Shown: one piece after another, positions 6,224 through 27,027 of the stretch | Layout of the letters: every line of letters starts with the position of its first letter | Numbering within the stretch: the first letter of the stretch is position 1 | Virus record (IMG/VR): IMGVR_UViG_3300005588_000086 | Coordinates: 1 to 27,027 of that record | Source: a virus | Length of the DNA: 27,027 bases | Reading direction: 5' to 3' (one strand) | The notes under the pieces: generated by a model | Told to the model about the DNA's origin: nothing | The model's database searches: none | The model's input: the letters and a program-made list of their open reading frames with translations, nothing else | Program-made: the position numbers and the translations under genes

Positions 6224-8890
6224 ATGCCATTAACAATTAATGTGGGGACTACGCCAACTAACGTAATTTCACAATTAAAAACAAAAAGCTTAAAAATAAT
6301 AAGATTATCATCTACTAAAAATACTTTTACAGCTAAATTTAATTGGTTTAGTGATTCTTCACCTGCAGATTATAGCTTTAAAGTAGGTGAAGAAATTATA
6401 GTTGCAGATGGTAGTACGACTCTATTTGGTGGAATAATCCAAGCATGCCCTAAAGTTAGATTGGGGCCAGGGATCTATGAATATACTTTATTTTGTACAG
6501 GATATGAACAGATTCTTTCAAGAAGAACAATTAGTGTAGCAAATTATTCAGGTACGTGTGGTGATCTAGCAGAATTAATTGCTACAAATTATCTTATTAC
6601 AACAAGTGATACATCTGAAGGAATGTCTTTAGGAACATTTGATGATGGGACAGATTTAACAAATTTAAATGAGGCTATTATATCAATATCAAAATTATAT
6701 GATACATTAGCAAAAGCCTCTGGATTTAAATGGTGGGTTGATGATGATAAAGAAATAAATTTTACTAAAGAACCTACGATTACTCAAGCACCTTATGATT
6801 TATTTCAAGCAACAGGAGACGCAAGAAGGCTTAATGATGTAAGAAATCCATCTAATTCTCCAGATTTATCAAATTTTAGAAACAAACAATTTTTCGTAGG
6901 TAAAGGGCAAAGTGGACAAGTTTTGTTTGGATCGGCTGAAGATTCTGCTAGTGTTACAGAAATGGCTACAAGATATGGATCCGGAGTTCATGGATCTATA
7001 GAATATGATAGCAAAGTAGAAACTTATACAGAAGCAAATGAAGCGGCTGCAGCTCTGCTTCAAAAACATAAAAATGAACCTAATCAATTTATATTTCAAA
7101 CAGAAGAAACAGGATTTGATATTAATCAATACTTTGATTGTACTTGGCCAGAACTTGATATTTCTACTGAAACAAGATTTGTAATTTCAAAAATAATAAT
7201 TAGAGATAAAGGTCGTTTCTTGTTATATGAAGTATATGCAGATGAGCGTATTGAAATAGTTGGAGAAGATTATGTTAATGCTCCTCCTATGGTATGGACA
7301 GAAAAATTTGGTAAAATGTCAACATCTGAAGAAGGATTAGGAAGTCCAGATTCAGGAGCTACAGATACTTATAGTGTATATGTATTTGAGGAGCATACGG
7401 ATACCAATCCAACTGATTTAACGAATGCTGCTCCTCTTACACTAGAAGCAGAAGCAATAATTAGTTTTCCAGCACATGCTTTCTTTGATGTGTCTTTGAC
7501 TGGTACTAATGGAACTTATTCAACAACTCCAATTGAGATCACATGTGAAGTTTATAAAGAAGTATGGAATGGAACATCTTATGATACTCCTACTCTCGAA
7601 CAAACGTTTACTTTTGTAGGACATTCTACTTTAGATCAATCATGGCATATAAGACACCCATTTAAAGATCTTCAAGTAGGAACTTATAGATTTTCGGCAA
7701 AATTATTAATAGGATCCGGAAATACATTTACTATAAATGATGATAATGATTTTAGAGTATGGATTACATCCCAAGGAATTAAAGCAGCTAATGGAGACTA
7801 TGTACCATTACCAGATCCACCAGTACCAGGCCCTGAGGGATATTTCATTGAACAGCTGGATTATATTACACACGAATCATCTTATGACGGAAATTACAAT
7901 GACTTAATTTGGTTAGATGATACGCATTGCATGTTGGCATATTATTCAAATGTCTTAAAACAATCCATAAAAGTATTTAGTGTAGATTCAAATTATGATT
8001 TAACGCTTGTTGATTCTTTAGATTTAACAGCAAGAGGAGAATGGACCAGTTTAATTCAATTAAGTAGTACAATGTTTGTTTGTGTTTATACATCGTCAGG
8101 AAATCAATATTATGATGTATTTACTATGGATGGTAGCTATAATTTAACTTTTTTAAATTATAATACATTTATTTCTGATCTTGATCAGCAAAGTTTGGTT
8201 AGAATCGATGATACACATTTTATTACAGCACAGAGAGGAGCAGACTCGGATGGATTTATAAGAACATATAGTGTTGATGGACTTGGAGTACTAACACAAG
8301 AAGATGCATTGGAACATGATACAGCTTTTGGTAGTTATAACAAATTAGCACGAGTAAGTGATTCAAATCTTTATGTATTAGCTTACAGAGGGGGAACAGG
8401 AGGACATTCTATTAAAACTTTCACTGTTGATGGATCATATGAAATTACAGAGGTAGCCAGTTATAAACATGAGACAATAAATGGCAGTAGACAATCTTTA
8501 GTAATGATAGATGATACGCACTTTGCTTTAGCTTATGATAGAGGTTCAGATGGAATTGTAAAAACTTTTAGCATGGATTCTGATGGAACTAACATAGCTG
8601 AAATTGATAGTATAGTGGAAGCAATGGGTTTTGATGAACCTTCTTTAGTTTTAATAGATTCAACACATCTAGCTTTAGCACTTAGAGGAACTGACAATGA
8701 TGGATATATAAATACTTATAGTTTTGATGAATCTTATGATAACTTGACAGAGATTGTCTCATTTGAGCATCAATCAGGAGCCGGATATTATAATGCAATG
8801 ATTATGCAAGACATTAGTCACCTTACACTAGCATATGGTGGATCAACTAGTGGATATATGAAAACATTTGGCTTAATAGAAGAACCATAG
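6224..8890 (+). CDS. Tail hub / receptor-binding protein with C-terminal beta-propeller
   Basis: 888 residues with AAGGAG before ATG 6224. The first ~350 residues look like a baseplate hub (gp27/Tal-like): it contains the SLKIIRLSSTKNTFTAKFNW start, a strand-rich FKVGEEIIVADGSTTLFGGII segment of OB/barrel type, and a WWVDDDKEINF element common in hub proteins. Residues ~370-530 form another beta domain ending in a Pro-rich linker (PDPPVPGPEG). From ~540 to the end there are seven repeats of about 48 residues. Each has a hydrophobic strand, a (D/S)(D/S)THF-type turn, a second strand and then xSVDxxY. I read this as a seven-bladed propeller that could bind a host surface ligand. No Dit gene separates it from the tape measure, so it may be the only tail-tip protein. 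Confidence 0.75.
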   Translation: MPLTINVGTTPTNVISQLKTKSLKIIRLSSTKNTFTAKFNWFSDSSPADYSFKVGEEIIVADGSTTLFGGIIQACPKVRLGPGIYEYTLFCTGYEQILSRRTISVANYSGTCGDLAELIATNYLITTSDTSEGMSLGTFDDGTDLTNLNEAIISISKLYDTLAKASGFKWWVDDDKEINFTKEPTITQAPYDLFQATGDARRLNDVRNPSNSPDLSNFRNKQFFVGKGQSGQVLFGSAEDSASVTEMATRYGSGVHGSIEYDSKVETYTEANEAAAALLQKHKNEPNQFIFQTEETGFDINQYFDCTWPELDISTETRFVISKIIIRDKGRFLLYEVYADERIEIVGEDYVNAPPMVWTEKFGKMSTSEEGLGSPDSGATDTYSVYVFEEHTDTNPTDLTNAAPLTLEAEAIISFPAHAFFDVSLTGTNGTYSTTPIEITCEVYKEVWNGTSYDTPTLEQTFTFVGHSTLDQSWHIRHPFKDLQVGTYRFSAKLLIGSGNTFTINDDNDFRVWITSQGIKAANGDYVPLPDPPVPGPEGYFIEQLDYITHESSYDGNYNDLIWLDDTHCMLAYYSNVLKQSIKVFSVDSNYDLTLVDSLDLTARGEWTSLIQLSSTMFVCVYTSSGNQYYDVFTMDGSYNLTFLNYNTFISDLDQQSLVRIDDTHFITAQRGADSDGFIRTYSVDGLGVLTQEDALEHDTAFGSYNKLARVSDSNLYVLAYRGGTGGHSIKTFTVDGSYEITEVASYKHETINGSRQSLVMIDDTHFALAYDRGSDGIVKTFSMDSDGTNIAEIDSIVEAMGFDEPSLVLIDSTHLALALRGTDNDGYINTYSFDESYDNLTEIVSFEHQSGAGYYNAMIMQDISHLTLAYGGSTSGYMKTFGLIEEP

Positions 8891-12319: not shown

Positions 12320-13103
12320 TATTGTTGATAAAATGAAAAATAATATTAAAAGCTCAGGCGGAAGTAGAAAGAAAATCTTATATGTAGGGGATGGGCAAAA
12401 GAGAAGGGTCCGATTCTTACAAGAATTAGATCAAGGCTTAGTTTTAACTTTTCATGATAGTTTTACTTTAGGTGTGAATGCACTTTGTTTAGACGATACG
12501 TTTGGGCAACCTTGTAAGCATTGTGGGAATGATGCTCTTAGAACACGTGAAATGTTTGGATTTTTAATCTTTGATTATGAGGATTCTGAAATAAAAGTAT
12601 TCTTATATGCAGCTAATAACTTTTCACCACTTCCTCAGATAATTGTATTTGCTGACACTTATGGTACAGTTACAGATCGTGATTTTGTAATTCATAGAAA
12701 TGGTAAAGAAAAGAAAACATCATATTCTGTAGTTCCATTAGATCCAGCTAAAATGAGAAAGCAACCTAAAAAACCATCTAAATCTGCTGTTCTAAAAATT
12801 ATTGCTAAAGCATTTCCTCAAGGGGATGATGATACAGACGATTATGATGATGCAGTTGAACAAGTTGAAGATGAGGAAGTTTGGGATGATGATGAATATG
12901 CAAATAAATCTCCTAAAGAATTATATAAACTTTGCAAAGAAAAAGATCTGGATCCTGATCAGAAACAACCGAAAGAATACTATATTGAGTTATTGAAATC
13001 CGATTCAGTTGATGATGAAGACTGGGATAATGAAGATGATGAAGACTGGGATGAGGATGGTGACAGTAATGATGAAACAATTCCAGATGTTGATGAGTGG
13101 TAA
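12312..13103 (+). CDS. Single-stranded DNA-binding protein, T4 gp32-like zinc type
   Basis: 263 residues from ATG 12312, chosen because GAGGAGGAAAGATA precedes it (the frame is open 23 codons further upstream). Residues His48, Cys59, Cys68 and Cys71 reproduce the His-x10-Cys-x8-Cys-x2-Cys spacing close to the zinc ligands of T4 gp32. The protein begins with the basic N-terminal segment needed for cooperativity and ends in a strongly acidic tail with many Asp and a final DEW. Between two acidic blocks sits a short HeH-like unit KSPKELYKLCKEKDLDPDQK. It would coat single strands during phage replication and interact with the polymerase and RecA coded downstream. Confidence 0.8.
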   Translation: MGSIVDKMKNNIKSSGGSRKKILYVGDGQKRRVRFLQELDQGLVLTFHDSFTLGVNALCLDDTFGQPCKHCGNDALRTREMFGFLIFDYEDSEIKVFLYAANNFSPLPQIIVFADTYGTVTDRDFVIHRNGKEKKTSYSVVPLDPAKMRKQPKKPSKSAVLKIIAKAFPQGDDDTDDYDDAVEQVEDEEVWDDDEYANKSPKELYKLCKEKDLDPDQKQPKEYYIELLKSDSVDDEDWDNEDDEDWDEDGDSNDETIPDVDEW

Positions 13104-13458
13104 AAATGGTGATGACATTTTAAGAACAATATTTGATATTATTATTGAGAATGAAAAGAATTTTAATGATGATATTTTACCTAAAGATGATCCTGTTAAG
13201 TTTTTTACAATGATATCTGCTATGATAGTTGAGGCAGGGGAAGCATTGCAAGAAGATAAGAGATGGAAGATTCTTGTAGGTAACAAAAGGGAATACGAAA
13301 AAAATGATGACAAACAACTTGAGGAATTGGCAGACGTTTTTATTTATGGGATAGCTGCAATATTATATGCAAACTTTGATTATGATATGTTCATAGAAGC
13401 TGTTCTACAAAAACTGCAAATTGTTCATGAAATATCTTTGGAAGGAGCAAAATTATGA
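13093..13458 (+). CDS. MazG/dUTPase-like all-alpha NTP pyrophosphohydrolase (probable dCTPase/dUTPase)
   Basis: 122 residues from ATG 13093 (13087 is an equally open alternative); it overlaps the SSB gene. Key residues of the all-alpha NTP-PPase superfamily are present: Glu47 and Glu50 (VEAGEAL), Glu54, the pair RWK at 57-59, and Glu78-x2-Asp81 (EELADVF), the ExxE...ExxD magnesium set. These enzymes turn dNTPs into dNMP and pyrophosphate. T4 uses one (gp56) to destroy dCTP so that only the modified form enters DNA. Placement beside the carbamoyltransferase and dCMP hydroxymethylase-like genes suggests the same task here, but the base specificity cannot be read from the motifs. Confidence 0.78.
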   Translation: MSGKNGDDILRTIFDIIIENEKNFNDDILPKDDPVKFFTMISAMIVEAGEALQEDKRWKILVGNKREYEKNDDKQLEELADVFIYGIAAILYANFDYDMFIEAVLQKLQIVHEISLEGAKL

Positions 13459-15272
13459 TCGTATTTGGTATTAGTTTAAGTTATAATTCATCGGCATGTG
13501 TCGTTGATTCTAAAAGAGGAATTATGCACGCTATATCTGAGGAAAGATTTACTAATGAAAAGAATAGTAGAGATTTCCCAATCAATGCTTTGAGATCTTG
13601 TGTTGATTTTATTTTAGAAAGTGATTTATATAGAGATGAGATTGTCAAATTTAATGTTGCTATTACATCTTATGAGACTTTAAACTCTAGAGATCTTAAA
13701 TACTTTCCAGATCTAAAGGATTCAGAAAGATCTAAGGATTTTTATTCTACTGTTACAAGATATATTAAAAACAGAATTAATGATTTAAGATCAAGTAAAT
13801 TTCATTATTTTAGAGCAGATCATCATTTATCTCACAGATTGCCTGCTGTTGCTTTAAGTGGATTTGTTGGAAACTTTAGAAATAAAGCAAGAACAATTGC
13901 TATAACTTATGATGGTTTTGGAGATGGGCAATGTGCTACTATTTATGACACAAAGACGCAAGCTGTTTTGGATTCAGTTCCAATGTATAATAGCTTAGCT
14001 TTAGTTTATCAGTTTGTTACAGGAGCTTTAGGATTTACTGAGCATAAACATGAGGGGAAAATAACAGGATTATCTGGCTTTGGATCTCCTATTTATGTTA
14101 ATGAATTTGAAAAGATAATTAAGTTTGATCCAGAAATTAAAGATTTTGACTCAGTTTATTTAGACACTATTTGTAATTTAAAAGCATTAGCTTACAACAA
14201 GTCACCTTTTAATACTAACATTAAATATTTTAGTAATTTCTTACTTTTAAGACAAACAGTTTATGAGATGGTTGAAAATCTAAAAAGACATGACGCATCA
14301 CGAGAGGATATTGCAGCATCACTTCAAAAATATGTAGAGATGCAAATAACAGACTGGATAGATTCTACTTTATATAAAAATGAAATCGGAGATGAACATT
14401 TGAATTTTGTTTTATCTGGCGGATTATTTGCAAATGTAAAGTTAAATTTTGAACTAAAACGAAACTTTGGTTTAAAGAATATATTTGTTTATCCTGCTAT
14501 GGGAGACGAAGGAACTTGTGTTGGTGCAGCTTTAGCATTTTTACAAACTAAAATGAATAACAACTTTATGAGTGAATTATGTTTTTCTAGGGATATTCTT
14601 TATAATGGACTTACTTTAGAAGAACAATTAGAAGCTGTAGAATTGAATCACATTTTTATTGAAGAATGTATAGATTTGGATATTGATTTTGATAATTATG
14701 ATTTGATTGCCGATCCTACTGAAAATCAAAAGATCTCAGTATTTGCTAATAACCTAGCTTTAAATAAAATTGTATGTACTTCTATTGGTGATAGTGAATT
14801 CGGGCCTCGTGCTCTCGGTAATCATTCTATATTCTTTGATGCTACTAAAGAAGAGACAAATACTGAATTAAATAAAAAATTGAATAGAACAGAATTTATG
14901 CCTTTTGCTCCTATTGTTTTAGACATATTTGCAGATGATCTTTTCGAACAATATGAAGGTGCTGAAAAAACATGTAAGTATATGACTATTGCTCTTCCTT
15001 GTAAAAAGGATTTTAGAGAAACTTATTTGGCAGCAGTTCATGTTGATGGAACAGCAAGGCCTCAAGTTATAGGCTACAATGATAATGAAACTATTTATAA
15101 AGCAATTCATGCCTATTTCAGAATTACAGGAAATAAAGCTCTTGTAAATACAAGTTTTAATTTACACAACTTCCCTATTATTAGAGATCCACAGATAGCT
15201 ATAAGTTCATTTTTAAAAGCTGATCTTGATGTTTTAATCTTGGATAATCTAATCATTATTAAGAGAGGATAA
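13455..15272 (+). CDS. NodU/CmcH-type O-carbamoyltransferase (probable 5-hydroxymethylcytosine carbamoyltransferase)
   Basis: 605 residues, four-base overlap (ATGA) with the pyrophosphatase gene. Both parts of the family are complete. The Kae1-like N-terminal domain has HHLSH (123-127), DGFGDG (153-158), GKITGLSGFG (201-210), SGGLFANVKLN (321-331) and the PAMGDEGTCVGAA loop (347-359). The C-terminal transfer domain has FGPRALGNHSI (449-459), FMPFAPIVL (481-489), VDGTARPQ (530-537) and LVNTSFN (563-569). Family members form carbamoyl-AMP from carbamoyl phosphate and ATP and transfer the carbamoyl to a hydroxyl. The neighbouring hydroxymethylase supplies a likely hydroxyl, so 5-carbamoyloxymethylcytosine is the best guess for the product. 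Confidence 0.92.
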   Translation: MIVFGISLSYNSSACVVDSKRGIMHAISEERFTNEKNSRDFPINALRSCVDFILESDLYRDEIVKFNVAITSYETLNSRDLKYFPDLKDSERSKDFYSTVTRYIKNRINDLRSSKFHYFRADHHLSHRLPAVALSGFVGNFRNKARTIAITYDGFGDGQCATIYDTKTQAVLDSVPMYNSLALVYQFVTGALGFTEHKHEGKITGLSGFGSPIYVNEFEKIIKFDPEIKDFDSVYLDTICNLKALAYNKSPFNTNIKYFSNFLLLRQTVYEMVENLKRHDASREDIAASLQKYVEMQITDWIDSTLYKNEIGDEHLNFVLSGGLFANVKLNFELKRNFGLKNIFVYPAMGDEGTCVGAALAFLQTKMNNNFMSELCFSRDILYNGLTLEEQLEAVELNHIFIEECIDLDIDFDNYDLIADPTENQKISVFANNLALNKIVCTSIGDSEFGPRALGNHSIFFDATKEETNTELNKKLNRTEFMPFAPIVLDIFADDLFEQYEGAEKTCKYMTIALPCKKDFRETYLAAVHVDGTARPQVIGYNDNETIYKAIHAYFRITGNKALVNTSFNLHNFPIIRDPQIAISSFLKADLDVLILDNLIIIKRG

Positions 15273-15276
15273 TAAT

Positions 15277-16701
15277 ATGAAAAATTTAAGTATTAATGCT
15301 AGAACTGCAAATGATGCATTCTTAAAAGTACTTAAAGCTTTGAGAGAGGACGGGGAAACCTGTTCTCCTCGTGGTTTAAAGATTACTGAATTATTAAATG
15401 TATCTATAAGTATTGAACATCCTAAAAACAGATTGATCACATTTCCTGAAAGAGCTATTAGTTTACCTTTTGCTTTTGGGGAATTTCTTTGGTATTTAAG
15501 AGGAGCACAGGATTTAGAAACAATGTCTTATTATTCAAGTCTAATGAAAAAATTTTCAGATGATGGTAAGACTTTAAACTCAGCTTATGGATATAGAATC
15601 TTTGGTAGACATAAATCTATAAATTTTAATCAGTGGGATGAAGTAGTTAGTAAACTTCGTCAGGATCCTGATTCAAGACAAGCAATAATCCATCTTCATA
15701 CTCCTAACAACCAACCTACAAAAGATGAAGTTTGCACATTATCTCTTCAATTTCTTATTAGAAATGGAAAGTTAAATATGATAACTACTATGAGAAGTAA
15801 TGACATATATTATGGATTCACATATGATGTTTTTAGTTTCACGTGTATGATGGAAATGATCGCATATGAACTGGATATTGAAATGGGAACTTACTATCAT
15901 AACGTAGGTAGCATGCACATTTATGAGGATAAGATGCATATGTTATCTGATGACTTTTTAATGGATCCACTAAATGAATATGTAATTAAGCACACTCCGG
16001 ATCTTAATCTCGATGGATTATCTAGAGGAACTACAGAACTACAAACCTTCTTTGCTTTTGAAAGATTAACTCGTCAGAATGAATGCTTTTTAAGTTATGC
16101 TCCTAACAATAATTTCTTAAAAATTGCTAAGAAAGTTCTGCTACAATATAGTATTACAAAGCATTATGAAAAATCTAGTTTTACAGGTAATCATAGAGCA
16201 TTTATTGATTCATTATATTATGATAATATTTATGATTGGATGATGTTTAACTTTTATTTCAGAAAAGAAGAAAGATCTTTATTTATAGCAGAAGGAGCAG
16301 ACGGATCTGGTAAAACTACTTTATGTCAAAAAATAGAATGTGATAAGATATTCCACTTTAAGTCTCCAAGTAAAGATTTTAATCCCCTTATTTATATTCA
16401 ATCTTTGAAAAGTTCAGGATCTAAAGTTCTGGATAGAAGTTTTATTTCAGAAATGATTTATAGTGAATTCTTTAGAAGATCAAGTATTATTGAACCATCT
16501 TTTGAATTAGCTTTGTTAGATTGTTTGGAAAAACATCCATCAGTTAAAGTAGTTATTTTAATGAATAATAGACATTATTTAGATGAGCAGGATCTGGTAA
16601 AAATAGGAAAGAATAATATTTCTAGATTAAATGCTTTATACAGATCTTTTGCTAATATGGTTTTAATTCCTATTTGTATCCCTACTAGGATTAAGGAATA
16701 A
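15277..16701 (+). CDS. dCMP hydroxymethylase-like (thymidylate synthase fold) fused to a dNMP kinase
   Basis: 474 residues. Residues 1-~290 are a thymidylate synthase fold: nucleophile Cys153 (EVCTLSLQFLI), RSND at 173-176, GFTYD at 180-184 and H214/Y216 (SMHIY). In thymidylate synthase the position of Asp184 is the dUMP-selecting Asn; T4 dCMP hydroxymethylase has Asp there in the same GFxxD context, which points to dCMP as substrate and hydroxymethyl transfer from methylene-tetrahydrofolate. Residues ~335-474 are a P-loop kinase: GADGSGKTT at 340-348 and LDRSF at 385-389, like thymidylate/deoxynucleoside monophosphate kinases. The fusion would make 5-hm-dCMP and then 5-hm-dCDP. A dUMP hydroxymethylase or an ordinary synthase is possible but less likely. 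Confidence 0.85.
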   Translation: MKNLSINARTANDAFLKVLKALREDGETCSPRGLKITELLNVSISIEHPKNRLITFPERAISLPFAFGEFLWYLRGAQDLETMSYYSSLMKKFSDDGKTLNSAYGYRIFGRHKSINFNQWDEVVSKLRQDPDSRQAIIHLHTPNNQPTKDEVCTLSLQFLIRNGKLNMITTMRSNDIYYGFTYDVFSFTCMMEMIAYELDIEMGTYYHNVGSMHIYEDKMHMLSDDFLMDPLNEYVIKHTPDLNLDGLSRGTTELQTFFAFERLTRQNECFLSYAPNNNFLKIAKKVLLQYSITKHYEKSSFTGNHRAFIDSLYYDNIYDWMMFNFYFRKEERSLFIAEGADGSGKTTLCQKIECDKIFHFKSPSKDFNPLIYIQSLKSSGSKVLDRSFISEMIYSEFFRRSSIIEPSFELALLDCLEKHPSVKVVILMNNRHYLDEQDLVKIGKNNISRLNALYRSFANMVLIPICIPTRIKE

Positions 16702-16703
16702 TT

Positions 16704-19409
16704 ATGCCAGATATTCATAGACATGATGAATTTAGTTCTTTTGACGGTTTTGGTAATCCCACTGAGTTGGCCAAACTTGCAAAAGAACTAGGATATACAG
16801 CACTAGGAATAGCTAATCATGGATCAGTTAGCGGATTAGTACTACATTATAAAGCATGTAGAGAGGAAGGAATTAAACCTATATTAGGAGTAGAAGCCTA
16901 TTTTCTTCCAGTATTTAAGAAACAACGTAAAAAGTATCATTTATGTTTATTTGCTAAAAATTTACAAGGCTATCAAAATATAATGAAAATTATGACAATT
17001 GCAGAAATGGAAAATAAGTATTATTCCGGCACTGTAACTTTTGAACTTTTAGAAAAATATCATGAAGGAATTATTTGTACTTCAGCATGCTTAGCAGGTT
17101 ATACATCTCAAGCAATATTGGCAGGCAATATGGCTTTGGCCAGAAAATCTCTTGTTAAGTTTAAAGAAATATTTGGAGATGATTTTTATATTGAGATCCA
17201 GCCTTATGATTGTTGGGATAATGATGACATAGAAGTTCAAAAAGATGTTAATCTTGATTTAATGGGATTTGCATATGATTTAGATATCAAATGTATAATG
17301 ACATCAGATAGTCACTATGGTAGAAAAGAAGATTTTGATACGTATCTAAAAATGCATGAAATTGGCAATCATAACTATGACATAGTAAAAACTTATGGGG
17401 AAAGATATATGCCAACATACGCCCAACTTGGAAGGAGATTTGTCAATATTTACGGTGAATCAAGTTTTGAGGATCGGTTCAATAATGGAGTTAAAGAATA
17501 TGCAAAACAAATGCTAAGAAATCTTAAAGAAATAGAAAATAAAGTAGAATCAGATATACTTGAAGATTTACCTTTGCTTTTACCTAAACTTGATGATAAA
17601 ATTGATAGTACAAAATTATTAAAAGAAAAAATACAAGCAGGCATGAAGAAAAGAGGAAAGACTTCAAAAGGATATCTTGATAGAGTTAAGCAAGAATTTG
17701 ATGTAATTAAGTATCACGGATTTGAAGATTATTTTCTTATAGTTGCAGATTATGTAAATTTTGCAAAAGATAATGATATTGAAGTTGGGCCAGGAAGAGG
17801 ATCTGTTTGCAATTGTCAAATAGCTTATTTTCTTGGAATAACAGAAGTTGATTCTTATGCACATAAACTTGATTTTAGAAGATTCCTTAGAAAAGATAAA
17901 AAGAAGCTTCCTGATATTGATTTAGATTTTGAAACTAGTAAGCGACAAATAGTTATTGACTATTTAATAGATAAATATCCAGGGCATGCATCTCAAATAG
18001 CATCTTATGGATTATATCAAGTTGATAATCTTTTGAATGATCTTGTTAAAGTTTGCGGAGTTCCAAAGGATGAAATAAAAGTTATAAAATCTCATGCATC
18101 TAGATTTGTAGAAAAAAATGGAAATAATAAAGAAATGAATTTAAAATCTTTAAATGCAGATAGCTATACAATTTATTTAAATAAGATTTATAAAAATATA
18201 TTTAAGCATTTTACTAAACTTTATAAAAATGTTAGATATATGAGTGTACATGCTGGGGGAGTAGCAATTACTGGAGGAAATATTACAGACTATTTGCAAC
18301 TAAGATTAATAAAAGAAAAACCAGTTTCATGTTATAATTTAAACGATGTAGAATTTCTGAATGTAATTAAATTTGATATACTAGGGCTAAAAACAGAGAG
18401 TATAATTAATAATTTGAAAAATATTACAAATGATGCTTACGATGAAAGTTGGCTACAGGATCCAGAATGTTTAAAGAATTTTGCAGAAGGAAAAACAGAT
18501 GCTATATTTCAATATGAAAGTAGTACAGCTAAGGAGATCCTAAGAATGATAAATGCTAATAATTTTAAAGATGTAGTTGTAGCCTCAGCTTTAAATAGGC
18601 CAGGCCCTTTGAATTTTAAAACTCATGAACTTTATGCATCTCAAAAATTAGATGGTAATTTTGAACATGATCTATTTTATAAATATACAAAAGACACATA
18701 TGGCACATTAGTTTTTCAAGAACAACTTCAACAAATTTGTGTAAATATTGGAGGCCTATCTTGGGCAGATGCTGACAAAGTAATGAAAGCTTTAAAAAAT
18801 GTTGGAATTGAAAGTGTAAAGGAAGAAATGGATGCCATTAAATTAGAAATGACAGATAAGTTTGTAATAGGTGCAGTTAAAAAAGGGATTCCTGAAAATG
18901 AAGCAAGAGAAATGTTTACAAAATTATTAGTATATTCATTTAATGAAGGACATGCTACAGGCTATACAATAGTATCTTTTCAAGAAATGTATTATCGTTG
19001 TCATTATCCTATAGAATTCTGGTCAATTAAATTAAAGTATACAACTAATGAAAAGAACATTTTTAAATATAAAGTTAATGCTATTATGGATGGTGCAATT
19101 TTATTCCTTCCTCATGTTAATTATTCAGCTTATTCTTCTTTACGGAAAATAGAGGATGATACAGTTATACAAGAAGGGCTAACAGCAATCAAAGGAATTG
19201 GAGCAAAAGCTGCTGAATCAATTGAAAAAGAAAGAAATAAGAATGGGCCTTTTAGATCTAAAGAAGAATTTATAAAACGATGTAGAAATAGAGCAGTTCA
19301 CAAAGGTGTAATTAAAAAACTAGATGAAAAAGGAGCTTTGGAATTTAGCAAAAAAAGATATATCTCTCGTTGTGTAAAATACAATGCAACATTTTATGCG
19401 AAAGGATAA
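16704..19409 (+). CDS. DNA polymerase III alpha subunit (DnaE-type)
   Basis: 901 residues, starting 2 bases after the fusion gene. The N-terminus is a PHP domain (HRHDEFSSFDG at 5-15 and ANHGSVSG near 37-44). The C-family polymerase core is clear: GPGRGSVCNCQIAYFL and PDIDLDF (about 403-409, acidic residues 404 and 406), matching the paired catalytic Asp of bacterial DnaE. Near the C-terminus a helix-hairpin-helix is visible (AIKGIGAKAAESI). At 901 residues it is shorter than the ~1100 of typical bacterial DnaE, so the C-terminal OB/tau-binding region is reduced. It is a phage-encoded replicative polymerase that would have to accept the modified cytosine nucleotide. No beta clamp or 3'-5' exonuclease is seen nearby. 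Confidence 0.93.
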   Translation: MPDIHRHDEFSSFDGFGNPTELAKLAKELGYTALGIANHGSVSGLVLHYKACREEGIKPILGVEAYFLPVFKKQRKKYHLCLFAKNLQGYQNIMKIMTIAEMENKYYSGTVTFELLEKYHEGIICTSACLAGYTSQAILAGNMALARKSLVKFKEIFGDDFYIEIQPYDCWDNDDIEVQKDVNLDLMGFAYDLDIKCIMTSDSHYGRKEDFDTYLKMHEIGNHNYDIVKTYGERYMPTYAQLGRRFVNIYGESSFEDRFNNGVKEYAKQMLRNLKEIENKVESDILEDLPLLLPKLDDKIDSTKLLKEKIQAGMKKRGKTSKGYLDRVKQEFDVIKYHGFEDYFLIVADYVNFAKDNDIEVGPGRGSVCNCQIAYFLGITEVDSYAHKLDFRRFLRKDKKKLPDIDLDFETSKRQIVIDYLIDKYPGHASQIASYGLYQVDNLLNDLVKVCGVPKDEIKVIKSHASRFVEKNGNNKEMNLKSLNADSYTIYLNKIYKNIFKHFTKLYKNVRYMSVHAGGVAITGGNITDYLQLRLIKEKPVSCYNLNDVEFLNVIKFDILGLKTESIINNLKNITNDAYDESWLQDPECLKNFAEGKTDAIFQYESSTAKEILRMINANNFKDVVVASALNRPGPLNFKTHELYASQKLDGNFEHDLFYKYTKDTYGTLVFQEQLQQICVNIGGLSWADADKVMKALKNVGIESVKEEMDAIKLEMTDKFVIGAVKKGIPENEAREMFTKLLVYSFNEGHATGYTIVSFQEMYYRCHYPIEFWSIKLKYTTNEKNIFKYKVNAIMDGAILFLPHVNYSAYSSLRKIEDDTVIQEGLTAIKGIGAKAAESIEKERNKNGPFRSKEEFIKRCRNRAVHKGVIKKLDEKGALEFSKKRYISRCVKYNATFYAKG

Positions 19410-19412
19410 TTT

Positions 19413-20354
19413 ATGAATAATAAAGATTTAAAGAAAATAATGGATGTGGCTAAAAGTATTACAGTCAAGCAAGGGGAAGGAGCTATATTTCATTTAGGAT
19501 CGGCGGAAGCAAATCTTGGAGTCGAAAGATGGTCAACAGGAATTGTGGAATTAGACAATGCTATTGGAGGGGGGATGCCAAAAGGTAGACAAATTGAAAT
19601 ATTTGGCCAAGAATCTACAGCAAAAACATCTTTAGCTTATCACTTATGTGCCCAACATCCTATTTGTTTATATATTCCAGCAGAAGGTACATTTGATCCT
19701 TTAAGAGCAAAATCTTTTGGGAATACTCCGAAACAAATGTTGGTATATAGAAACTGTAAATATGCTGAAGATATAATTAATAAGATCTTGGATTTCGCAA
19801 GAGCTGGGATCCCGTTAATAGTTGTAGATTCAGTGCCAGGGATGCAATGTAAATCTGAATATGATCAAGTTGAAAAGGATGCAGAAAAGCAACCTCAATA
19901 TGGTCAATTATCTAGATTATTTAGTAGGACGATGAAAAATATTGAAGATACAATTGAAAGAACAGGAACAACAATTATTTGGGTTAATCAAGTAAGAGCT
20001 AAAATAAATGCTTCAGCTTTTGGAGAACAAGATGACTCCCCAGGAGGAAAAGCATTTAAGCATTATATTTCTTTAAGAATTAAAACTTATAGAAGAGAAT
20101 GGATCAATGTTCCTAATAAGAATCCTGCATCATCTTCAACAAATGAAAGATGTGGATTGATTCAAAAAATTAAGATTTTGAAATCAAAAGTTTGTGCTCC
20201 TCAAGAAGAAAGAGAATTACCAATGTTTTTCCTTTATGGATATGTTTCTTTCGATGATCTTCAAGAGAAAAGAAAGATTATTATGAAAGCTAATAATGAG
20301 AAATACAAGAAAAAGAAAGAAGATGAAGAGAATGAAAACTGGGATGACGACTGA
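19413..20354 (+). CDS. RecA/UvsX-type recombinase
   Basis: 313 residues, AAAGGA before ATG 19413. It has a RecA core: the ATP loop GQESTAKT (65-72), the catalytic Glu in IPAEGTFDP (Glu91), Walker B IPLIVVDSVPG (133-143) and the L2-region VNQVRAKINAS (191-201). One oddity is Ala at 70, where the Walker A usually has Gly before the Lys. The C-terminus is acidic (EENENWDDD), as in RecA. It would promote strand exchange for phage recombination-dependent replication together with the SSB and resolvase. Shorter than E. coli RecA (353), so the C-terminal domain is reduced. Confidence 0.88.
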   Translation: MNNKDLKKIMDVAKSITVKQGEGAIFHLGSAEANLGVERWSTGIVELDNAIGGGMPKGRQIEIFGQESTAKTSLAYHLCAQHPICLYIPAEGTFDPLRAKSFGNTPKQMLVYRNCKYAEDIINKILDFARAGIPLIVVDSVPGMQCKSEYDQVEKDAEKQPQYGQLSRLFSRTMKNIEDTIERTGTTIIWVNQVRAKINASAFGEQDDSPGGKAFKHYISLRIKTYRREWINVPNKNPASSSTNERCGLIQKIKILKSKVCAPQEERELPMFFLYGYVSFDDLQEKRKIIMKANNEKYKKKKEDEENENWDDD

Positions 20355-22593: not shown

Positions 22594-22840
22594 AAAGAAA
22601 GTTAAAGGAATTAAACAAGGAAAGTTTAGAATTGTTGTAGATGGACAAATGATTAATACCCAAGTATATATGGATTATGAGGGTAGATTTATTATGGTTA
22701 AAGGAAAAAGAATAAAAGTAAATTGGGATCCTGCAGAATCTAGATTTTATACACCAATTATTTGTAGCAGATCAGATGTAGATCCTGAGTATAGAAACAA
22801 AATGAAGATACTAGAACAAAGGTTATTTGGAAATGCTTAA
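22586..22840 (+). CDS. Small basic unknown protein
   Basis: 84 residues from ATG 22586; AAAGGATGAGAATA gives the SD for this start, and an ATG three codons upstream at 22577 is also open. The protein is Lys/Arg-rich with short strands (KQGKFRIVVDGQMINTQVYM) and resembles a small basic nucleic-acid-interacting protein, which is a guess. It precedes the resolvase gene and overlaps it by about eight bases. Confidence 0.55.
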   Translation: MGRKKVKGIKQGKFRIVVDGQMINTQVYMDYEGRFIMVKGKRIKVNWDPAESRFYTPIICSRSDVDPEYRNKMKILEQRLFGNA

Positions 22841-23447
22841 TCTGAAACATAAAAAGATTGTTATTGGTTTGGATCAGTCATATGAGAATTGTGGTATATC
22901 TATTGCTGTTGATGGTAAGTTAAAACGATGTACCTCACTTAGATTTAAAACCACAGATACTAAATCAGAAAAACGTAGATTATTAAGAGAGAGATTGGGT
23001 AAGTTATTTATTACCTGTTTATTCAGAGCAGGAAACGTGACAGTAATATTCGAAAGAATTAGATTATTTTCTGGAGGTAACATTAATCAATCATATTTAA
23101 TTGAAACAGGAAAATTAATTGGATCTATATTGGATAAGGCTTATCAATGTGGCATAACCTGCTACTCAGTTGACACCAGATCTTGGAAATCTAAAATCTT
23201 AGGAAGTAGTAAAACCTTTGATAAGTATGCTGATTGGGAGAAACCTGAGAAGGCAGCAGCTATAGAATTTATTCAGGCTCTAGGATTTGATTGTAGATTA
23301 CTGGATAAGAATGGAAATCAAAAAATAGTCACAAAAGGTAAAAAGAAAGGAACACTGAAATGGAATGATGATATGGCAGATTCTGGTTGTATTGCTCTAT
23401 ATGGATTCCTACCTGAATCACAACAGAAACTACAACTTGAAGAATAA
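22833..23447 (+). CDS. RuvC-like Holliday junction resolvase
   Basis: 204 residues from ATG 22833 (a TTG at 22827 is also open). The RNase H-fold acidic residues are in place: Asp14 in the first strand (VIGLDQSYENCGISI), Glu in VIFERIRLF, and the paired Asp of NDDMADSG near the C-terminus, followed by the CIALYGF helix. It fits the phage RuvC/YqgF-type resolvases that cut four-way junctions before packaging. It ends the replication/recombination operon; after it comes a new promoter. Confidence 0.8.
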   Translation: MLNLKHKKIVIGLDQSYENCGISIAVDGKLKRCTSLRFKTTDTKSEKRRLLRERLGKLFITCLFRAGNVTVIFERIRLFSGGNINQSYLIETGKLIGSILDKAYQCGITCYSVDTRSWKSKILGSSKTFDKYADWEKPEKAAAIEFIQALGFDCRLLDKNGNQKIVTKGKKKGTLKWNDDMADSGCIALYGFLPESQQKLQLEE

Positions 23448-26224: not shown

Positions 26225-26545
26225 ATGAAAGAAAATTTATATCAAGCAGAGATTGGATTCTTAGGAATGTTCCCAAAAGAAAAACCAGTATTAACAGAAG
26301 TTTTACTTAATAAATTAAATACATCTTTTAAAATTATGGTAAACGCATCTCAAGTTACTGCAGATGGGAAAAAAAGTAACTGGATGTTTATGGCTAATAA
26401 TGATAAATCTGGGCCATTAACTTTAGACACAGAAAGAGAAGCAATAAAATTTGTTGAATTTTTAGTTAAGCAAGGCATGGATCCTTGGAATGTTAAAATA
26501 ATTCAAGAATTATACTTCAATTATGGAGGTGAGTTCTTTGGTTAA
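26225..26545 (+). CDS. Unknown protein, 106 residues
   Basis: AGAGGTGAGATC before ATG 26225. Mixed helix and strand with NWMFMANNDKSGPLTLD in the centre and aromatic residues near the end (YFNYGGEFFG). No family recognised. The final codons carry the ribosome site (GGAGGTGAG) of the next gene, which starts inside this one. Confidence 0.55.
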   Translation: MKENLYQAEIGFLGMFPKEKPVLTEVLLNKLNTSFKIMVNASQVTADGKKSNWMFMANNDKSGPLTLDTEREAIKFVEFLVKQGMDPWNVKIIQELYFNYGGEFFG

Positions 26546-27027
26546 AGGAAGAGAAAGAACTCAAAAATGGTATTTAGAAAATGAAAAACATGTAATGTCA
26601 TTTTTGGGATTAACTCCTTGTAAAGGATCTGGTAATGGAGCTGTTGAAAAAGAGGATGGATATAATGATAAAGTTTTGGCTCAATTGAAATCTACAGATA
26701 AAATGAGTTATAAAATGGATCATTTTGATTTAGAGAAATTAAGCTATCATGCAATGTATAGCAATAAACTTCCTCTATTTGTTTTAGAATTCTTAAAATA
26801 TGATGAATTATGGCTATGTTGTAAAGTTGAAGATATATTAGCAATAGTTGCATCTTTATTTGAAGAATCACTCATTCAATATTTTAAAGAAGATCCGGAC
26901 GTAATATTAGATCTGGATTTATCTGAGGATCCAGAAGAAGAAATTGAATGGAAACCACCAAAAGCTATTAAATCTGATGGTTTTGATAAATATAATCAGG
27001 ATCGGAAAAAACGTTATGAAAAGGAGT
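26538..27027 (+). CDS. PD-(D/E)XK-type endonuclease / resolvase-like protein (3' partial)
   Basis: Open to the end of the window (163 codons). I take TTG 26538, eight bases after GGAGG; a GTG at 26529 is also in frame but sits on the ribosome site. The part around residues 28-90 shows KGSGNG, EKEDGYND and LAQLKST followed by a helix (FDLEKLSYHAMY) and a strand PLFVLEFLK, which is the layout of archaeal/phage Hjc-type and restriction-like nucleases. The usual Glu-x-Lys is here Gln-x-Lys (QLK), a variant seen in some members of the superfamily. Assignment is tentative; the end of the protein is missing. Confidence 0.5.
   Translation, partial: MVKGRERTQKWYLENEKHVMSFLGLTPCKGSGNGAVEKEDGYNDKVLAQLKSTDKMSYKMDHFDLEKLSYHAMYSNKLPLFVLEFLKYDELWLCCKVEDILAIVASLFEESLIQYFKEDPDVILDLDLSEDPEEEIEWKPPKAIKSDGFDKYNQDRKKRYEKE

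Follow-up and report, generated by a model that had tools for sequence, protein, structure and literature searches.

A predicted dCMP hydroxymethylase fused to a nucleotide kinase-like domain in a putative cytosine-hypermodification operon of a tailed phage

Hydroxymethylating enzymes of the thymidylate synthase (TS) family are recognized by a signature that consists of an Asp three residues before the catalytic Cys, plus Ser-x-Tyr, and in the CMP hydroxymethylase MilA the K133R and A176S substitutions jointly shift the substrate from CMP to dCMP (T4 ternary-complex paper, PMC6400193). In contigs of phages with modified cytosine, carbamoyltransferase genes adjoin those of TS homologues, and an NTP pyrophosphohydrolase domain is among the commonest neighbours of these carbamoyltransferases (Yang et al. 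2021, MetaGPA, PMC8670742). One such carbamoyltransferase forms 5-carbamoyloxymethyl-dC from 5hmdCTP as well as in single-stranded DNA; this characterised enzyme, which takes carbamoyl phosphate and ATP, also modifies free 5hmdC (PMC8670742). No report of 5-carbamoyloxymethyl-cytosine later than the discovery of this base in 2021 was found in a literature search.

The locus described here belongs to a virus record of 27,027 bases and 31% G+C, referred to below in its entirety as the window, in which one strand carries all head, tail, lysis and replication genes. Positions 15277–16701 (+ strand) encode a 474-aa protein, with the Shine-Dalgarno sequence AGGA before the ATG, that consists of a pyrimidine (dCMP-type) hydroxymethylase domain (residues 1–330; 15277–16266, + strand) and a P-loop NMP-kinase-like domain (residues 333–474; 16273–16698, + strand). 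The presence of a dCMP-type hydroxymethylase and a nucleotide-kinase-type P-loop domain in a single chain, as claimed in the original prediction, is well supported. A literature search, judged by titles and abstract openings, yielded no report of a hydroxymethylase-kinase fusion; this is a new domain architecture within a pathway that is already known.

The N-terminal domain matches the thymidylate synthase family of Pfam (PF00303) over residues 1 to approximately 330 at 2.6e-29, far beyond chance, and the family profile match spans residues 2–330. Among proteins of solved structure, the best relative by sequence is MilA (1.6e-42), with the canonical synthases (1.9e-18) and T4 dCMP hydroxymethylase (dCH; 1.3e-14) well behind; the family profile also places MilA closest, and the predicted fold is nearest to MilA (Z 33–34). 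Alignment with T4 gp42 (a fetched public record, L089), which had been proposed as a check, matched all the T4 dCH signature residues: E69, S102, Y104, D150, C153 and D184 of the fused protein correspond to E60, S94, Y96, D145, C148 and D179. The residue on which the assignment to dCMP had been based, D184 in the context GFTYD, aligns with Asp179 of gp42 (GFRND), at a position where the SPO1 dUMP hydroxymethylase has Asn; the latter enzyme also has Ala at position 102 (numbering of the fused protein). Cys153, R173-S174-N175-D176, H214 and Y216 are all present at the residues initially named. Furthermore, R134 and S174 align with the switch positions K133 and A176 of MilA and are the dCMP-type residues. 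Judged by all residues that can be tested, the N-terminal domain is of the dCMP type.

In the C-terminal domain, the P-loop GADGSGKTT occupies residues 340–348 of the same 474-aa chain, as originally reported. The Pfam Thymidylate_kin match is weak (0.046, under the cut-off), and phrog_139 (deoxynucleoside monophosphate kinase) is not listed at E 0.1. The C-terminal part used alone matches phrog_761 at 1.1e-9; the kinase of Lactobacillus phage ATCCB is found at 5e-12 with 32% identity in a two-sequence comparison, and the match to the kinase family profile, which itself included the window sequence, is 3.1e-24. Walker A and the DR...Y motif, both invariant in the phrog_761-type family, are kept, and the D, R and Y of the LDRSFISEMIY motif are invariant across 28 kinase-family sequences. 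The model of the whole chain was built with hydroxymethylase alignment rows only, and its kinase half and linker are unreliable; the kinase was folded alone because the combined whole-chain alignment misplaced the kinase rows. The confident portions of the predicted models are single domains. The AlphaFold model of the isolated kinase domain (pLDDT 83.5) is nearest to YorR of prophage SPbeta (Z 13.1, rmsd 2.5, 135 residues, 20% identity), the crystal of which contained a guanine nucleotide, followed by polyphosphate kinase 2 and then thymidylate kinases. Structure prediction, the other proposed check, places the two halves near MilA and near a group that includes thymidylate kinases, respectively. 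Confidence in the activity of the kinase is limited because the domain is short, at 142 aa, and because most relatives have R-x-x-R type arginines that the lid segment here, LDEQDLVKIGKNN, lacks (as do the kinases of L078 and L094); activity or specificity may be reduced in consequence. The same kinase family also takes part in a different, likewise unusual fusion in Bacillus phage G gp315 (L006 1450–2445), where it is joined C-terminally to a domain of the uracil-DNA-glycosylase superfamily (PF03167, 1.5e-12).

Relatives were fetched from viral and bacterial collections by alignment-based scans, and their ORFs were scanned for both families. Only one of the 195 distinct TS-family ORFs, that of the window, is fused to a kinase, in agreement with the initial impression that the combination is uncommon. 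A separate kinase gene adjoins 90 of the 195, usually with overlap, and lies directly upstream in 80 cases and directly downstream in 10; it is located farther off within the fetched DNA in 47 cases and is absent from the fetched DNA, where many loci are partial, in 57. Loci retrieved by the kinase profile inflate the kinase count, and adjacency is already common in the initial hydroxymethylase-based set alone. Two long TS-family ORFs, of L136 and L155, were considered as fusions in the reverse order but rejected: their N-terminal extensions are out-of-frame read-through, and no Walker A motif is present.

Of the 138 TS-family ORFs whose locus includes a kinase, 137 have the dCMP-type Asp, vs 44 of the 57 whose locus does not; this is an informal count among related sequences. 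This distribution bears on the substrate of the kinase. The joined domain could be a general dNMP kinase, acting on dTMP, dGMP or dCMP and fused for coordinated expression, with hm-dCMP having no special role and without channelling: the family is annotated as thymidylate kinase (phrog_761), the fold is close to those of YorR and thymidylate kinases, and the dNMP kinase of T4 accepts several substrates. We consider this reading unlikely but still deserving of weight, given that the kinase accompanies the dCMP-type and not the Asn-type enzyme (with the caveat that the sequences are not independent) and that kinase and hydroxymethylase form tight, overlapping gene pairs. From the gene neighbourhood, one may reasonably infer that the kinase takes hm-dCMP.

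With respect to the junction itself, the hydroxymethylase profile stops at residue 330 and the kinase starts at residue 333. The domains are joined end to start, since these boundaries lie about where hydroxymethylases and kinases encoded by separate genes have their end and their beginning, respectively; the fusion would have originated by loss of a stop between two separately encoded neighbour genes. An alternative is a sequencing or assembly artefact, in which an indel removed a stop and the natural state is two overlapping genes as in the relatives. The junction is covered by one contig only, an exact probe having retrieved no second contig that spans it, and 10 relatives have a hydroxymethylase gene followed by a separate kinase gene, some overlapping. 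However, no Shine-Dalgarno sequence was found before the two in-frame starts that lie close upstream of Walker A (ATGs at 16240 and 16243; there are no others), unlike most neighbouring genes (those starting at 13455, 15277, 16704 and 19413 each have one); no homopolymer of at least 5 occurs between 16174 and 16327, and the codon-position composition is continuous through the junction. Taken together, an assembly error at the junction is unlikely, and we give the artefact a distinctly lower probability than the general kinase. The fused protein, used as a single query against viral contigs, retrieved no relative. One further contig, IMGVR_UViG_3300005589_000157 (L088), encodes a carbamoyltransferase 100% identical to that of the window and probably stems from a separate assembly of the same virus; it ends at window position 15401, 125 bases into the fusion gene.

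The gene at 13455–15272 (+ strand), which ends 4 nt ahead of the fusion gene, encodes a 605-aa carbamoyltransferase of the TobZ/NodU type (PF16861, 1.3e-46; PF02543, 1.8e-26). With both the N-terminal (PF02543) and C-terminal (PF16861) carbamoyltransferase domains next to a dCMP-type TS homologue, this protein, a relative of the characterised enzyme, is likely a 5-hydroxymethylcytosine carbamoyltransferase. Among the fetched loci its closest relatives, in L167, L208, L096 and L008, are all found in loci with separate kinase and hydroxymethylase genes, and kinase, hydroxymethylase and carbamoyltransferase are three linked genes in these four loci and in the phages Xp15 and HHU4. Immediately upstream, at 13009–13458 (+ strand), lies a gene for an all-alpha NTP pyrophosphohydrolase of the dUTPase_2 family, possibly a dCTPase or dUTPase (phrog_173, 1.9e-5); its PF08761 match of 23.6 bits is just over the cut-off of 22.9, and its start, a TTG with no clear Shine-Dalgarno sequence, is uncertain and the gene overlaps that of the carbamoyltransferase. 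Since a carbamoyltransferase gene and a dCTPase-like gene adjoin, carbamoylation is the probable purpose of the hydroxymethyl group. Downstream, the next gene of the operon (16704–19409, + strand) encodes a DNA polymerase III alpha-type polymerase (PF07733, PF02811, PF17657; phrog_405, 2.3e-214) and is followed by one for a RecA/UvsX-like recombinase (19413–20354, + strand; PF00154, 3.1e-41). Elsewhere in the window there are two distinct Holliday-junction-resolvase-like genes (22827–23447 and 26523–27026; phrog_159 and phrog_2002) and, 3′ of the tape-measure gene, an 888-aa ORF (6224–8890) that matched no PHROG at E 0.01.

In phages that hypermodify thymidine, P-loop kinases act on the hydroxymethyl-pyrimidine in DNA. 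By extension, the kinase of the fusion could phosphorylate the base hydroxymethyl group, in DNA or in a nucleotide, in the manner of the ViI/M6-like 5-hmdU DNA kinases, for further chemistry, and a group-transfer enzyme is indeed present in the operon. Nevertheless, the phages ATCCB and nattely encode a beta-glucosyltransferase after the kinase and hydroxymethylase. This enzyme requires hmC with a free hydroxyl, which is easier to reconcile with a kinase that acts on the nucleotide phosphate than with one that acts on the base. The characterised carbamoyltransferase also uses free 5hmdC (PMC8670742), and the fold and profile of the domain are of the thymidylate-kinase/YorR type; accordingly, we regard phosphorylation of the base as very improbable. 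Least probable of all is the reading of the N-terminal domain as a flavin-dependent dCMP 5-hydroxylase of the HY126 AfhB type instead of a hydroxymethylase: the AfhB entries (9iqc and 9iqu, which name a riboflavin-dependent monooxygenase and dCMP hydroxylase) are the next fold match after MilA at Z 24.6, but MilA is about ten Z units higher and also top by sequence, and the hydroxymethylation signature, with its water-activating Asp and Ser-x-Tyr, is intact.

The analysis shows the domain identities, signature residues, gene order and recurrent neighbour pair, while both activities, the sequence of reactions, the resulting base and its role for the phage are what we infer. The fused protein is probably a bifunctional dCMP to hm-dCMP to hm-dCDP enzyme of tailed-phage hypermodification, with subsequent carbamoylation to 5-carbamoyloxymethyl-dC. 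Under this scheme, the upstream dUTPase_2-family protein probably depletes dCTP and supplies dCMP. The N-terminal domain would then hydroxymethylate C5 of dCMP with methylene-tetrahydrofolate and water via a covalent adduct at Cys153, Asp184 would recognize the cytosine and Asp150 would activate the water, and the C-terminal P-loop kinase would convert hm-dCMP to hm-dCDP. A host NDP kinase could yield hm-dCTP, to be incorporated by the phage Pol III-type polymerase, and the carbamoyltransferase would modify either the nucleotide or single-stranded DNA to give 5-carbamoyloxymethyl-cytosine. The operon thus probably makes a carbamoylated cytosine that hides the phage DNA from host defences; in particular, the modified base should shield the genome from restriction. 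Channelling of hm-dCMP between the two sites, as envisaged in the original prediction, is possible. A stricter version, in which hm-dCMP is handed from site to site and the carbamoyltransferase acts on the nucleotide pool to give 5-carbamoyloxymethyl-dCTP before replication, appears doubtful, on a par with the general dNMP kinase.

The operon offers a compact candidate for the entire route to 5-carbamoyloxymethyl-cytosine. The fusion and the recurrent neighbour pair also suggest a testable function, that of a hydroxymethyl-cytosine nucleotide kinase, for the widespread and loosely named "thymidylate kinase" family phrog_761, and both predicted steps could be assayed coupled, from one purified chain. 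Two cultured phages are candidates for carbamoylated cytosine: Acinetobacter phage HHU4, with carbamoyltransferase, kinase and TS homologue close by, annotated as hypothetical (L091 5986–9899), and Xanthomonas phage Xp15, with the same three genes clustered and the kinase labelled as a DNA polymerase subunit (L092 5989–9412). In Bacteroides phage BF486P2, two annotated dCMP hydroxymethyltransferase genes are found near a carbamoyltransferase gene (L093 8495–9256 and 11328–12008).

Compared with the known systems, the new elements are the kinase as a regular partner of the hydroxymethylase and the single hydroxymethylase-kinase chain; the carbamoyltransferase and the kind of pathway are known. 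T4 gp42 and the gp1 dNMP kinase carry out the same reactions as predicted here, in the same order and with the same hydroxymethylase signature residues, but as two proteins, and the kinase of the window belongs to phrog_761, with phrog_139 not listed. MilA, from the mildiomycin pathway of Streptomyces, is the closest solved protein in sequence and fold and shares the Asp-type recognition of cytosine; however, CMP is its preferred substrate and it lacks a kinase domain, whereas the fused protein has the dCMP-type R134 and S174. Among solved structures, the nearest kinase fold, YorR of the Bacillus prophage SPbeta (2axp and 3kb2; Z 13.1 and 13.0), is a stand-alone protein with 20% identity to the fused kinase domain. 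The MetaGPA operons resemble the window in that genes for a carbamoyltransferase and a dCMP-type TS homologue lie side by side and an NTP pyrophosphohydrolase is near, although the text mentions neither a kinase nor a fusion (PMC8670742), and in the window hydroxymethylase and kinase form one chain. Finally, L096, L167, L208, L008, Xp15 and HHU4 encode the same three families in close linkage, but as separate genes with the kinase ahead of the hydroxymethylase, whereas in the window the carbamoyltransferase gene is upstream, the hydroxymethylase comes first and the kinase is C-terminal.
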